Below, in pieces: positions 5,388 to 34,274 of a stretch of 64,000 bases of DNA. Made by a program: the position numbers and the translations under genes. The stretch is from Archangium violaceum (GTDB lineage: Bacteria; Myxococcota; Myxococcia; Myxococcales; Myxococcaceae), in assembly GCF_016859125.1 (NCBI RefSeq), contig NZ_CP069338.1, forward strand, positions 3,250,501 through 3,314,500, read 5' to 3'. Every line of letters begins with the position of its first letter. Position 1 is the stretch's first letter. The notes under the pieces were generated by a model. The model was not told the origin of the DNA. It was given only the letters and a program-made list of their open reading frames with translations, and searched no databases.

Positions 5388-5719
5388 ATGGCGACGTACA
5401 ACATCTCCCTGGCGGATCTCCGGCAGGACATCGCCGGAGTCATCCCCGCCGGGCTCGTCCTGAGCTGGAACGAGCAGGAGAAGACCTCCGTCCGGCACGA
5501 GCAGTTGCTGGCCCCCTTCCGGACGCGGGGCACCCTCGTTTCTACGGACTCGGCGGGGCTGTCCAAGCTGTCTACAGCAGGGCGAGCCCTTCCGTCTGAC
5601 CCTCTCAAGGGTCGAGCTGAACGGGCATCGCTTTCCTGTCTGAAGGCCGCCGAAGTGGAGCGGGTCTCTGGTGGCGGGTGTCACCCGTCGACGACCTCAT
5701 CAACCACCTGGAGGGCTAG
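5388..5719 (+). pseudogene. Decayed gene after gshB (possible cyclase-type protein remnant)
   Basis: The first ~64 codons look like an intact protein start (MATYNISLADLRQDIAGVIP ... TRGTLVSTDSAGLSKL), four bases after gshB. After that the reading frame loses protein character. Fragments that look like genuine coding ends appear in other frames: GEPFRLTLSRVELNGHRFPV-stop near 5580-5640 and RVSPVDDLINHLEG-stop at 5678-5719. This pattern fits an internal deletion plus frameshifts in a longer gene. From memory the N-terminus resembles an adenylate-cyclase-type protein found next to myxobacterial gshB; this is a weak call. Confidence 0.5.
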
Positions 5720-6270
5720 TAGGTGGGACCCGTCTCCGCGGCGAGCTGCTGGAGCGCCTTCTCCCAGCTCGCTCCGCGCTCATCGTCCTGCCAGCTCGTC
5801 ACGCTGCTGCCGCCGCGGCTCACCAGGCTCACGCGAGCGATGGCCTGCGAGTGCGCGGGGCTGCCGACGAACTGGTACATGGCTTCTTCGTCCTTCCAGA
5901 CGGTGAACGTGCGTTTCGTGTTGCAGCGCGTGGATTGAGCGAACTGGACCGCCACGAGCCCCTGTTGCTGCTGGAGGGTCTGGTCGATGGGGCCCGAGAG
6001 CCGCTCGAACTCCGCTTGGGCTTCCTGTGAGTGCCCCATGCGCAGGTAGGTGCTGCTCATGATGTAGGTACCGGGCGCGAGCCTACCCTGGGCGTCGACC
6101 CCCGGGCCCTGGAGGGGACTGGATTGGAAGTCGGGCTCCATCGCGTCGCGCTTGCAGCCGTCGTCACTGGGGAGCTCAGGGGGTGGCTCTTTCGGGGGCG
6201 GCGGGGACTCCGAACCGCCACATGCGGCGACAGAGAAAGAGAGCAGCGCTGCTGCGAGGGGACGCTTCAT
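5716..6270 (-). CDS. Predicted lipoprotein
   Basis: 184 residues from ATG 6270, with AAGGAG about 8 bases upstream. MKRPLAAALLSFSVAACGG is a lipoprotein signal with C17 as acylation site, followed by a proline-rich linker. The body reads like a small alpha/beta domain of the dimeric alpha-beta barrel type (FERLSGPIDQTL ... KRTFTVWKDEEAMYQFVGSP ... AIARVSLVSRGGSSVTSWQDD), similar in outline to antibiotic-biosynthesis-monooxygenase-like or DUF3291-like proteins; that similarity is tentative. It lies 37 bp after the membrane-anchored gene at 6308-6736 and is probably in its operon. Confidence 0.8.
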   Translation of the reverse strand: MKRPLAAALLSFSVAACGGSESPPPPKEPPPELPSDDGCKRDAMEPDFQSSPLQGPGVDAQGRLAPGTYIMSSTYLRMGHSQEAQAEFERLSGPIDQTLQQQQGLVAVQFAQSTRCNTKRTFTVWKDEEAMYQFVGSPAHSQAIARVSLVSRGGSSVTSWQDDERGASWEKALQQLAAETGPTY

Positions 6271-6307
6271 GATGTGACTCCTTGGAGTGAATGGGGACTG
6301 CGGGACG

Positions 6308-6736
6308 TCAGCGAGTGGCGGGCGCCGCGGACCGGACGGTGCCGAACAGGAGTGGGGAGAAGTCGCGGCCCAGGCGCTTGGAGTGGAAGTCCTCGGAGCG
6401 CGCGAAGATCCGCACCTGGACCGCATCCGCCGCCGAGGCGGTGGAGCTCAGCGTGGCGACCCAATGCTGCGCACCGGCCGGATCCCGTACGCGGAGATAG
6501 AGATAGGAGCCGGCGCGCAGGCGCTCCTCGACGAGACCGGTGAAGCCGAACCTCGCCGACGGCTCGAGCGTGTAGTGCTCCAGGGGATTGCCGGAAGGCC
6601 GCTCGGGCCAGAGCGTGTAGGCCGCCGCGAGCCCCGTGGTGAGCAGGACCCCGCAGACAATGGCCGTTCGTCGCAGGCTGAGGAAGCGACGCTCCCTACC
6701 GTTCGCCTCCGGCCCGAGCTTCTGCCCTGCGTTCAT
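6308..6736 (-). CDS. Single-pass membrane protein of unknown function
   Basis: 142 residues starting MNAGQKLGPEANGRERRF. One transmembrane helix spans about residues 25-43 (AIVCGVLLTTGLAAAYTLW), after a basic cytoplasmic stretch; the remaining ~100 residues should face the periplasm and contain a beta-rich segment (FGFTGLVEERLRAGSYLYLR ... VQVRIFARSEDF). No family recognised. It is followed by the lipoprotein gene at 5716-6270. Its 60-bp leader is nearly identical to that of another gene 27 kb away (33607-33673), so the two may share regulation. Confidence 0.75.
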   Translation of the reverse strand: MNAGQKLGPEANGRERRFLSLRRTAIVCGVLLTTGLAAAYTLWPERPSGNPLEHYTLEPSARFGFTGLVEERLRAGSYLYLRVRDPAGAQHWVATLSSTASAADAVQVRIFARSEDFHSKRLGRDFSPLLFGTVRSAAPATR

Positions 6737-6796
6737 GGTTTCGCCCCCAGGTGTCCTGCTTCAAAACCCCGGGTGCGCGAAACTGTTACCCGACAG
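6731..6796 (-). repeat. Duplicated 5' leader, copy A
   Basis: This 66-bp block, running from the start codon upstream, aligns with 33607-33673 with one single-base indel and a handful of mismatches. It contains GTTTCGC (6738-6744) and its inverted partner GCGAAAC (6777-6783), spaced like two half-sites or the arms of an RNA stem. Confidence 0.8.
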
Positions 6797-6952
6797 CGCT
6801 CTTTGGAGGTTCGGTGCGTCGTCTCATGTCGCATGCCCGGGAAACTACGGTCCACGCCGTTCGTCTCCGGCCCGAGCCGACACACGGCACGCGAGAGCGG
6901 ACGAGCGGCACGTCCCGGCGGATGAGTGGTCCGGCGCCTCGAGGAGGCCGGG

Positions 6953-7690
6953 CTACTGCTTGAGACCCAGCGCCGCCTTCACCGCGGACAGGGAGCGACG
7001 GCTCACCCGCGCGGACTGGCCATCCTCGAGCTCGACCTCGTGGATGCCCTCGTTGCTACGCAGGGCCTTCACGCTGCCGAGGCGGATCAACTCCCCCCGG
7101 TGCACGCGCAGGAAGCCATGGGCGCGCAACCGCTCCTCGAGCAGGGACAACGGCTCCTCGGTGCAGTGCTCGTCCTGGTCCGCGCGGAAGAGCGTGTATT
7201 TGTCGCTGCTCCAGAAGCGCGTGATGTCGCGGGCATCGAAGAAGCGGCTCACCCCGCGTGTGACGGTGATGATGCGAGTCGATGGCCCCCCGCGACGGAC
7301 CACCACCTCCAGCGCTCGGGTCGCCGCCTCCTTCGTCGCGAGGAGCCGCTGGCGTGCGCGCTCCACGGCGGCCATGAGCCGCTCGGGCCGCACGGGCTTG
7401 AGCAGGTAGTCGACCGCGCTCACCTCGAAGGCCTGCACGGCGTACTCGTCGTAGGCGGTGATGAAGATGAGCGGCGGCAGATCCGTGTAGCGCTGCGCGA
7501 GCGAGAGCCCATCCAGCCCGGGCATCCGGATGTCGAGCAGCAGGAGCTCGGGGTGCAGCGTCTCCACCTGCCGGAGCGCCTCCTCCCCATCCCCGGCCTC
7601 TCCCACGACCTCGGTGCCCGGGATGCCTCCCAACAGGCGGATCAGCCGCCTGCGCGCTGGTTCCTCGTCGTCGACGACCAGGATCCTCAT
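6953..7690 (-). CDS. LytTR-family response regulator
   Basis: 245 residues. Residues 1-120 are a receiver domain: MRILVVDDEEPARRRLIRLL supplies the acidic pair, LLLDIRMPG supplies phosphoacceptor D53, and ITAYDEYAV and YLLKPV supply the T/S and K switch residues. Residues ~135-240 are a LytTR DNA-binding domain (ITVTRGVSRFFDARDITRFW ... LRVHRGELIRLGSVKAL). LytTR regulators bind direct-repeat sites and control envelope or secretion genes. Its ATG overlaps the stop of the sensor kinase gene (ATGA), so they form one translational unit. Confidence 0.96.
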   Translation of the reverse strand: MRILVVDDEEPARRRLIRLLGGIPGTEVVGEAGDGEEALRQVETLHPELLLLDIRMPGLDGLSLAQRYTDLPPLIFITAYDEYAVQAFEVSAVDYLLKPVRPERLMAAVERARQRLLATKEAATRALEVVVRRGGPSTRIITVTRGVSRFFDARDITRFWSSDKYTLFRADQDEHCTEEPLSLLEERLRAHGFLRVHRGELIRLGSVKALRSNEGIHEVELEDGQSARVSRRSLSAVKAALGLKQ

Positions 7691-8897: not shown

Positions 8898-10256
8898 TCA
8901 GCTGACCAGCGGTGTCCGGGCTCCCTCGAGCTCGGGCGCTCCCGTGAGCCGCCGGGCGATGCGCCGGCGGACGATGTCGATGTGCTCGCGGAAGAAGTAG
9001 AGGTTCTCGGCGTACGAGAGGGGAATGGGGATGCGGTTCACCTCGCGCTCCGTCTCATCCAGCCGCTTCATCATGTCCTCGAGCATCGGCCGATCCGGAT
9101 TCTCCTCGAGCTGGATTTCGAGCTCCTTCAGGCGCGCGTACCAGCGGAAGATGCGCGAGCGGACGCGCCACAGGAGCAGCGCCGGCACGGCCCGCCCCAG
9201 GGGAACCAGCACGGCGATGATGGGCACGAGCATCACCCAGAGCCGGTCAACCAGGTTCGCGGCCCAGAACGGCAGGTAGCGTTGCAGGAGCGGAGCACCG
9301 GTCTGGTAGTAGCGGCGGGCTTCGCTACTGAGCGGGAAGCCCGTCTCGAGCGGCGCGGGGAACTCACCCGCCCGATCGAGCAGCCCGGAGCTGCTGTGGA
9401 TCTCACTCGCGGTGCGCATGAGCAGGTACGCGAGCGCGGGGTGTAGCGTGTCGCGCGCCACCAGGTTCGCGGTGGGCGAGAGCAACACCACGTCGTGGTC
9501 CGGGATGTCCGCCGCGAAGTCGAAGACGCCCCGGGGGAGTACGTGCTTGGAGAGGTACGGGAAGCGGCGGGTGTAGGCATCCGCCCGCGTGAAGCTGAGG
9601 AGCCGCACCCCGGGCACCGCGGCGAGCTTCTGGATCGGCGGTGACTCCGCTGGCGCCACGAGGAACACCGCGTCGATGCGTCCTTCCTTGAGCTGGTTGA
9701 TGGCCTCGTCACGCTCGAACGGCAGGAGCTCCGTGGGAGCCGTGTCGGCGCCATTGGCCTTGAGGAGCGTGAGGGCGAGCGCACGCGTTCCGCTCTCGGC
9801 GGGCCCGATGGCGATGCGCCGGCCGCGCAGCCCAATGACATCGTCGATCGGCTCGCCCCGATAGAAGACCCACAGGGGCACATACGAGAGGCTCCCGAGC
9901 GACACAATGCGAGTGTCCTTGTCCCCACGCAGCGCGCCGCTCTGCACGAAGGCGACATCAACCTGGGCCTGGTCGTCGGCGAGCAGCTCGACATTGGAGA
10001 GGGAGCCCTTCGTCGTGCGCAGCTCCAACGTGACGCCGTGCCGTGCGAGGAACTCCTGGTAGCGCTTCGCGAAGTACCGGAAGCCGCCCTCGTCCGGGGC
10101 CACTGCGAGGACGAGCGTCTTCGGAGGGGCGGGTTTGACGAAGTAGAACGTGACGGCGAACGCCGCGGCGATGATGAGGGTCACGGGCGCGAGCGTGAGC
10201 CACATGTCGCGCCGCAATGCGCGCCGGAACTGTTCCCTGAACGTGTCCTTCTGCAT
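8898..10256 (-). CDS. TAXI-family solute-binding protein with membrane anchors and coiled-coil tail
   Basis: 452 residues. Transmembrane helix 1 is at ~20-41 (LTLAPVTLIIAAAFAVTFYF). Residues ~45-300 form a TAXI/TRAP-type periplasmic binding domain: RYFAKRYQEFLARHGVTLEL, DVAFVQSGAL, GLRGRRIAIGPAESGTRALA, NQLKEGRIDAVFLV. A second hydrophobic helix follows at ~325-350 and then an amphipathic, probably cytosolic tail of about 100 residues. Classical TAXI proteins are secreted and feed a TRAP permease; no permease is seen here, so this two-anchor form may sense rather than transport. It sits 60 bp upstream of the LytS-type kinase gene on the same strand. Confidence 0.9.
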   Translation of the reverse strand: MQKDTFREQFRRALRRDMWLTLAPVTLIIAAAFAVTFYFVKPAPPKTLVLAVAPDEGGFRYFAKRYQEFLARHGVTLELRTTKGSLSNVELLADDQAQVDVAFVQSGALRGDKDTRIVSLGSLSYVPLWVFYRGEPIDDVIGLRGRRIAIGPAESGTRALALTLLKANGADTAPTELLPFERDEAINQLKEGRIDAVFLVAPAESPPIQKLAAVPGVRLLSFTRADAYTRRFPYLSKHVLPRGVFDFAADIPDHDVVLLSPTANLVARDTLHPALAYLLMRTASEIHSSSGLLDRAGEFPAPLETGFPLSSEARRYYQTGAPLLQRYLPFWAANLVDRLWVMLVPIIAVLVPLGRAVPALLLWRVRSRIFRWYARLKELEIQLEENPDRPMLEDMMKRLDETEREVNRIPIPLSYAENLYFFREHIDIVRRRIARRLTGAPELEGARTPLVS

Positions 10257-33105: not shown

Positions 33106-33612
33106 TCACCAGACGAATCGCTGGCAGCCGAGCGCCGTCATCTGCTGGCAGTTCTCGGCGTCCTTGGCGCAGGGACCGACCTGCATGGCCGTCGCCAGAT
33201 ACGTCCTGCCCGCGACGAGGGGCCGCGCGTCATGGCCCTTCCGATCGCTCGCCGGCCTCACACCGTATTCGATGGGCGACTCGATGAAGGGCTGCTCGAG
33301 AGCCACCTCGTGGAACGGCTCGGACTCGGCGGCGCCCAGTCCCCACACGAGGTGGCCGGAGCACGAGCAGGTCTCCGCCTTCTCCAGTGTCGAGGGCTCA
33401 CTGCACTCGATGACCTCGAAGCGGTGGAGCTTGCCTCCCTCCCAGGAGAAGCGAGGCGAGTCCGTCCCGCGCTCCATTCTCAACGGGAGTTGCGCGATCT
33501 CGGTATCGCCATCAAAAGCGATATCGGGTTGGCAGGCCGTCGCCAGGGACAAGGCGAGTAGCGCGCCGGAGCCGCGGATGAAGGAGGACTTCGTCTTGTG
33601 TCGTGCGTTCAT
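33106..33612 (-). CDS. Predicted lipoprotein
   Basis: 168 residues from ATG 33612. The signal GALLALSLATACQP has an LATAC lipobox (Cys27 acylated). Six further cysteines (ECSEP, CSCSG, CAKDAENC, CQRF) suggest disulfides. No family recognised. The start is chosen because the preceding 60 bp match those of the gene at 6308-6736, and both proteins begin MNA. Orientation and leader duplication hint at shared control with that gene. Confidence 0.75.
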   Translation of the reverse strand: MNARHKTKSSFIRGSGALLALSLATACQPDIAFDGDTEIAQLPLRMERGTDSPRFSWEGGKLHRFEVIECSEPSTLEKAETCSCSGHLVWGLGAAESEPFHEVALEQPFIESPIEYGVRPASDRKGHDARPLVAGRTYLATAMQVGPCAKDAENCQQMTALGCQRFVW

Positions 33613-33673
33613 GGTTTCGCTCCCAGAGTGTCCCGCTTCAACACCACGGGTGCGCGAAACCGTTACCCGACAG
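33607..33673 (-). repeat. Duplicated 5' leader, copy B
   Basis: 67-bp match to 6731-6796, covering the first codons and the leader of this lipoprotein gene. It contains GTTTCGC (33614-33620) and GCGAAAC (33654-33660), as in copy A, one base further apart. Confidence 0.8.
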
Positions 33674-33719
33674 TGACGCGCGGACCCGAAAGGGCCCGCG
33701 CGCCGGAAACCTCTACCGC

Positions 33720-34274
33720 CTACCCGAGGATGACGGTGCAGGTGCCCTCGGAGCACTGGAGCCCGTCGCAGCACGGCTGCTCCGCGTCGCACTCGAACCC
33801 CTCGGGCCTGCACTGATCTCCCGGCTCGCCCGTGCCGGCGTCCGGCTGCGGCCCCGGCGGCTCGCCCGTGCCGGCGTCCGGCTGCGGCTCCGGCGGCTCG
33901 CCCGCATCAGGCTCCGCCGTGCCGCCATCCTGATCCGGAGGCGTCCCCGCGTCGCTTCCCTCACAGGCGCCGAGCCTGTCTCCATGCTTCAGGTGTGCCT
34001 TCACCGCGGGCTGCCCCACGGTGATGGTGTGCGCACGGGAGTGGTTGCCGGGGGGGATGTGGCAGAGGGTCACCCACCAGTCGTCACCACCCGACGAGGG
34101 ACCCTCCACACCCCCACCACCGCCCGTGGATTCACCCGCACCCAGGTTGTCACCCTGGAAGTTCGGAGCGTTCTCTTCCTGGGGGAACTGTGTTCCACCA
34201 CAACCGCCCACCAGGGCCACGCAGAGCGTGGCGGCGAGGAGGGTCGAGGGGATCATCGCCTTCTTCAGTGTCAT
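33720..34274 (-). CDS. Lipoprotein with Pro-Asp-Ala-Gly repeats and Cys-rich tail
   Basis: 184 residues from ATG 34274. MTLKKAMIPSTLLAATLCVA and LVGGCGG give a lipobox. The middle is a low-complexity linker with GEPP-x-PQPDAGT repeated (36-bp DNA repeat at 33825-33896), and the end is a small Cys-rich knot (CRPEGFECDAEQPCCDGLQC). A WWVTLCHIPPGNHSRAHTIT piece in the folded part resembles a short surface domain. Similar repeat-linker lipoproteins are common in myxobacteria. Function unknown. Confidence 0.82.
   Translation of the reverse strand: MTLKKAMIPSTLLAATLCVALVGGCGGTQFPQEENAPNFQGDNLGAGESTGGGGGVEGPSSGGDDWWVTLCHIPPGNHSRAHTITVGQPAVKAHLKHGDRLGACEGSDAGTPPDQDGGTAEPDAGEPPEPQPDAGTGEPPGPQPDAGTGEPGDQCRPEGFECDAEQPCCDGLQCSEGTCTVILG
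33825..33896 (-). repeat. Two tandem 36-bp coding repeats
   Basis: Two copies of a 36-bp unit differing at one base, encoding the GEPP-PQPDAGT linker of the lipoprotein at 33720-34274. A third, degenerate unit follows. Confidence 0.85.

Follow-up and report, generated by a model that had tools for sequence, protein, structure and literature searches.

A shared leader before two unrelated genes of Archangium violaceum as a putative ECF sigma promoter with start codon

Genes and leader copies in the window

The stretch of DNA analysed in this study, referred to as the window, comprises 64,000 nucleotides of the Archangium violaceum genome (NZ_CP069338.1, positions 3,250,501 to 3,314,500). It carries two genes on the reverse strand, P1 and P2, neither of which has a Pfam or NCBIfam match, and each is preceded by a copy of the same leader (Table 1). 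The two copies align from the ATG to about 60 bp upstream and differ by five substitutions and one 1-nt gap (alignment counted by eye). BLAST against the single-contig genome of 12.68 Mb recovered the duplication with 88% identity across bases 1-77 of the 80-base query (E 3.7e-21); it is real and far beyond chance. The near-identical leader upstream of two genes reported in the initial annotation is thereby confirmed, and the translations bear out its remark that the proteins, which appear unrelated by eye, are alike in MNA alone.

Table 1. Features at the two leader copies and in neighbouring genes (window positions).
Feature	Position	Strand	Remark
ORF downstream of P1, ABM (antibiotic biosynthesis monooxygenase) domain	5716..6426	-	true start possibly near 6303
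P1	6308..6736	-	142 aa; N-terminal stretch hydrophobic by eye
Leader copy 1	6737..6796	-	putative promoter and short 5' UTR before P1
Inverted repeat, right arm GCGAAAC, copy 1	6738..6744	-	adjoins start codon
Putative -10 region GGTTTTGAAGC, copy 1	6758..6768	-	14 nt past -35 box; matrix rank
Inverted repeat, left arm GTTTCGC, copy 1	6777..6783	-	starts in last base of first box, enters spacer
Putative -35 box GTAACAG, copy 1	6783..6789	-	GTRACRG/GTRACAS in 18/18 sites compared
Relic like the start of the P1 coding sequence, upstream of leader	6828..6877	-	86% over 50 bp to G003 P1
LytTR response regulator upstream, outside leader	6953..7690	-	no long match in G003 or G005
P2	33106..33612	-	168 aa, lipoprotein-like (by eye)
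Leader copy 2	33613..33673	-	before P2
Putative -10 region GGTGTTGAAGC, copy 2	33635..33645	-	
Putative -35 box GTAACGG, copy 2	33660..33666	-	
G+C-rich hairpin without T run	33675..33705	-	between stop of upstream ORF and copy 2 (by eye)

Of the two copies originally described both are real, but the genome holds three: the genome-wide search for the block that had been proposed revealed an additional one at 7.33 Mb, upstream of P2b, a paralogue of P2 (86% or 83% identity, depending on the alignment). Since the homology of P2 and P2b spans 787 bp, including the entire gene and the upstream hairpin, the pair is regarded as an ordinary gene duplication. No consensus terminator was found in the region 33500-34000. 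In a permissive Rfam scan, a sub-threshold tmRNA match was obtained beside P2b, the tmRNA-like fragment, below the gathering score, lying about 1 kb from the gene (L002:304-367 and 1560-1916). Another stretch beside P2b is reminiscent of an IS91-type transposase, and its ORF has no Pfam match. The surroundings of P2b may be an island situated at a tmRNA gene.

GTTTCGC and its inverted partner GCGAAAC are present in both copies in the window, as first noted. In copy 1 they make up a repeat of 7 bp around a loop of 32 nt, and in copy 2 the repeat is 8 bp long (GGTTTCGC/GCGAAACC) with a loop of 33 nt.

The leader and its genes in related genomes

A DNA search with the leader gave matches in 4 of 59 genomes, including the window's own, designated G000. 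In the same genus, G003 and G005 carry the leader before P1 orthologues that are 85 and 82% identical, and the leader, P1 and the ABM ORF (window 5718-6801) form a unit common to G000, G003 and G005, with unlike flanks. In G018, which belongs to another genus, P2 is 56% identical and a diverged leader is present, and P1 (53% identical) has no leader as judged by eye. The leader match in G029 is weak and does not have the layout (by eye). P1 was matched in 13 and P2 in two of 34 genomes (own included), and relatives of P2 occur in three of the 145 genomes of the order, again counting the own genome. A model built from the six leaders on sequence alone (R1), run against 96 genomes of the family, recovered exactly those six at E <1e-10, with the next match at 0.0014. 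A pattern search for wider copies over genome contigs returned 17 stretches, none myxobacterial by title, from a collection in which records of close relatives were possibly left out.

Two further observations concern the surroundings of these genes. The G081 copy, one of the three P2 relatives of the order, is broken (L071:1501-1641), with an in-frame TGA, an absent C-terminal part and the 3' half of the leader only. The NMT1-like gene by the window's kinase-regulator pair (8898-10256) has a relative adjoining the P2 orthologue of G018 (L068:6299-7624).

The likeness of the G005 P1 orthologue to P2 continues through about 18 nt of coding sequence (ATGAACGCACGACAGAAG compared with ATGAACGCACGACACAAG in P2). 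The leader of P2 is found in both genera and that of P1, as far as searched, in the window's genus alone, and the simplest order of events would be that P1-ABM gained a promoter together with the ATG and about six codons. A relic of the start of P1 upstream of copy 1 shows rearrangement at this spot. The initial suggestions had included a small mobile leader whose start codon travelled along. The history of the locus fits this suggestion, P1 of G018 being without the leader and those of G000, G003 and G005 having it along with the ATG and some six codons, but the locus comparisons and empty-site searches revealed no moving enzyme, target-site signature, clean empty site or joint.

Two boxes at fixed spacing and an ECF sigma operon

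The leaders keep the consensus GTAACRG-N14-GGTKTTGAAGC, with a gap of 14 nt in six out of six, the gap sequence of G018 differing from the rest. The sequence upstream of the block is unlike in G000, G003, G005 and G018, so the promoter should lie inside the block. Sigma-54 and sigma-70 boxes did not fit the leader by eye, and there was no sigma-70-like site in 33500-34000. The 14-nt gap is present in all 18 sites of the class that were compared, the six leaders among them, these sites having been chosen by the box layout. The first box contains AAC in 11 of them (10 from the window's genus and one from G018) and GAC in the seven from other genera, and the -10 sequence is GGT, not CGT, in all 18.

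The layout was searched as a pattern in six genomes of the genus. With up to two mismatches, the matches listed for five genomes (G003 left out) include 13 non-leader sites, four of which represent a single orthologous site in G001, G002, G004 and G005, located 55-58 nt upstream of the TTG with which an ECF sigma gene begins; the other nine are not at this sigma gene. With up to three mismatches, the six genomes yielded 233 sites compared with 347 for the reversed control, so there is no general excess of the pattern; the own genome has 59 compared with 44. Multi-copy matches of the type GTAACAGCGCGTCC... look by eye like tmRNA 3' ends and were taken as chance. The fragments resembling tmRNA 3' ends that were inspected (by eye; L152-L161) come from G001 (four), G002 (one), G004 (three) and G005 (two), with one more in the own genome (L209); they are perhaps marks of integrated elements.

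The leader-only model R1 was run before the sigma factor came to light. Among its matches listed, 10 non-leader ones start at model position 8 or lower, a cut picked after seeing L064 and L044, and six of the 10 have both boxes, in the form GTGACAS and GGTGTT with the same spacing; the boxes are absent at the other four (L052, L061, L190 and L195). In G097, the class site lies 58 nt before an orthologue of the sigma gene (73%), and in G118 the gene behind it encodes a DUF2807 lipoprotein, with the sigma orthologue (64%) coming next. The class sites of G065, G071, G073 and G075 stand before apparently orthologous genes of TonB type, the protein of G065, which is from a further genus, containing TonB_C and TonB-receptor plug domains. 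Eight places were inspected, with boxes in L188 and L189 and none in L190 to L195, of which L191 to L194 start above model position 8. G118 has one more class site, 2.5 kb away and before another gene; of its two sites (L197, - strand index 868 and 3384), the first precedes a possible methyltransferase gene (by eye).

As the site had been seen in four congeners, the own genome was predicted to have one at its sigma operon as well, and this prediction was then met. The own ECF sigma gene, found via synteny at 10.807 Mb (L241) and absent from the regions 8.27-8.69 Mb and 3.11-3.57 Mb where it was also sought, is 95% identical and is preceded, 58 nt before its start, by GTAACAG-N14-GGTGTTCAGGT, three mismatches from the pattern. 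The encoded protein of 159 aa has sigma regions 2 and 4 only: it matches Pfam Sigma70_r2 and r4_2 above cut-off and NCBIfam sigma70-ECF with 61.7 bits (cut-off 42.9). The motif stands before the sigma factor's own operon in G000, its congeners G001, G002, G004 and G005, and G097 and G118 from two other genera, and the neighbourhood of the sigma gene is largely common to G001, G002 and G005 over 17-19 kb. Sequence conservation, site positions and the presence of the sigma gene are direct observations. The next ORF after the sigma gene encodes 245-275 aa in four of four loci checked, with likely one membrane span (by eye), and overlaps the sigma gene by 4 nt or begins 1 nt past its stop; in the own genome it has 268 aa and starts 1 nt after the sigma stop. 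It has no Pfam match in G001, and only its position and appearance make it a putative membrane anti-sigma factor. G001, G002 and G004 have the sigma gene and no P1 or P2 match, so that the leader-bearing genes look like accessory passengers.

A scoring matrix was trained on six ECF-operon sites including the own sigma promoter. The latter scored 50.1 bits and the own leaders 28.2, 24.0 and 23.0 bits, with the next best at 11.9 bits, which places the leaders 2nd to 4th among 2,843,876 own-genome positions scored. As the training sites were found by their likeness to the leader, the matrix is partly circular and measures specificity rather than providing independent proof. When only the boxes are scored, the P1 leader is equalled by L209, a tmRNA-like fragment.

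Readings of the leader and comparison with known systems

We consider it probable that the leader is an ECF sigma promoter combined with a start module, which captured P1-ABM. Two unrelated genes of this soil bacterium with its large genome would then begin with the same 60 letters because both carry copies of one apparent stress-type (ECF) promoter, and the initial suggestion of a shared promoter or operator gains support, as the two boxes of the block also precede the ECF sigma operon in the same genome. GTAACRG would serve as the -35 element and GGTKTTGA(AGC), 14 nt on, would hold the -10 element; transcription would start a few bases past the latter, giving a 5' UTR of about 25 nt with a purine-rich ribosome binding site, followed by the ATG. 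The sigma factor encoded at 10.807 Mb would be autoregulated through the class promoter before its own gene, with the putative anti-sigma factor encoded behind it, and P2, P2b and the P1-ABM operon would be induced whenever the sigma operon is. P2-type genes would have carried the module first, and a copy that included the start codon and the first codons would later have come to lie before P1-ABM in the window's genus. Here, the activity of the promoter, its start site and its recognition by the sigma factor at 10.807 Mb are predictions from sequence, as are the function of the anti-sigma factor and the direction of copying. Further-reaching, and in our judgement doubtful, is the proposal that a module of about 75 bp, composed of ECF promoter, ribosome binding site, start codon and six codons, spreads among myxobacteria and recruits unrelated envelope genes into an ECF regulon, perhaps with hairpin control. 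If this were true, there would perhaps be a second layer of control, via the hairpin in the leaders of both genera.

The hairpin is central to an alternative that we regard as improbable, a structured 5' UTR, in which a transcript starting upstream of GTAACAG would form a GTTTCGC-GCGAAAC hairpin hiding the ribosome binding site, with some signal acting on the conserved loop. The inverted repeat is real but by itself weak evidence, as a longest repeat of this length has shuffle P values of 0.059 for P1, 0.02 for P2, 0.092 for P2b, 0.219 for G003 and 0.054 for G005. In G018 the repeat is perfect over 10 bp and was equalled in 0 of 1000 shuffles, with a differing stem sequence and the conserved stretch in the loop. 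All six leaders, five of which are close relatives, fold better than most dinucleotide shuffles (P1 0 of 300, P2 0.023, P2b 0.037, G003 0.017, G005 0.057, G018 1 of 300), and with longer pieces the number of shuffles folding as well, of 200, is 4 for P1, 31 for P2, 23 for P2b and 1 for G018. These figures favour a hairpin, and the promoter reading leaves this folding and the G018 repeat unexplained. On the other hand, the left arm sits between the two boxes and should therefore not be transcribed, and the register of the repeat is not conserved among the sites of the class: complements between spacer and downstream sequence measure 6-10 bp in the leaders, but 4-8 bp at varying places in the 12 other sites. 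Moreover, TTTCG, shortened to TTCG in the genus's sigma promoters, adjoins the first box also in most promoters without an in-register right arm, RNAalifold found one of 16 pairs changed on both sides with a covariation term of +1.28, and no sequence common to G000, G003, G005 and G018 was seen upstream of the block (by eye). The position of the left arm and the lack of register make the structured 5' UTR, which the initial annotation had also considered, less likely, and it is not favoured even though the leaders fold well. A riboswitch or known RNA was rejected, since Rfam scans of the window (curated thresholds) and of four loci (permissive) gave no match on any leader and three weak matches elsewhere. 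An upstream ORF overlapping the ATG was likewise discarded, its frame being intact, as judged by eye, in just P2 and P2b.

A remnant without regulatory role, left by a mobile element or by gene conversion, would account for leader, P1 and ABM as an exact common unit in three genomes with unlike flanks and for the part of P1's start repeated upstream of the leader, but it is very unlikely given that both boxes are conserved from one genus to another and also stand before unrelated operons. Scarcely credible is an operator for a DNA-binding regulator, an example being the LytTR response regulator whose gene neighbours P1: this gene is found immediately upstream of the leader in the window and, in G018, immediately upstream of P1, but P1 of G018 stands behind the kinase-regulator pair without a leader, the leader-bearing G003 and G005 have only short, distant matches to the pair, and the repeat differs between genera.

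The interpretation in the initial annotation is therefore partly supported, and with the ECF promoter reading a puzzling repeat becomes a testable regulon with a conserved ECF sigma factor, a promoter consensus and accessory genes, which seem to have joined it by acquiring promoter and start codon. Such a traceable regulatory capture is of use in work on the ways in which orphan genes come to be expressed. This regulon was not met in the literature searched, a statement that is confined to that literature.

According to PMC8103513, the early definition of ECF sigma factors included AAC in the -35 and CGT in the -10 element, together with autoregulation and an anti-sigma factor transcribed along with the sigma gene, with a later restriction to the sigma2/sigma4 domains, and about 55% of ECFs are predicted to be autoregulated. 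The sites described here resemble such autoregulated promoters in having two boxes, AAC in the first box within the window's genus and G018, a class site at the sigma factor's own operon and an adjoining putative anti-sigma ORF (PMC8103513). They differ in their -10 sequence, GGT(GTT/TTT) instead of CGT, and in GAC in place of AAC at the seven sites from other genera. With mobile promoters (Matus-Garcia et al., 2012, as cited in PMC8049555), the leader shares the near-identical putative promoter before the non-homologous genes P1 and P2, whereas just three genomic copies exist here, start codon and first codons are common as well, and one pair (P2 and P2b) is a plain gene duplication. The orthologous P1 genes with unlike upstream regions between genomes are similar to the horizontal regulatory transfer and switched intergenic regions of PMC5890482; unlike there, the incoming region can here be traced to the promoter of another gene and to a likely sigma factor.
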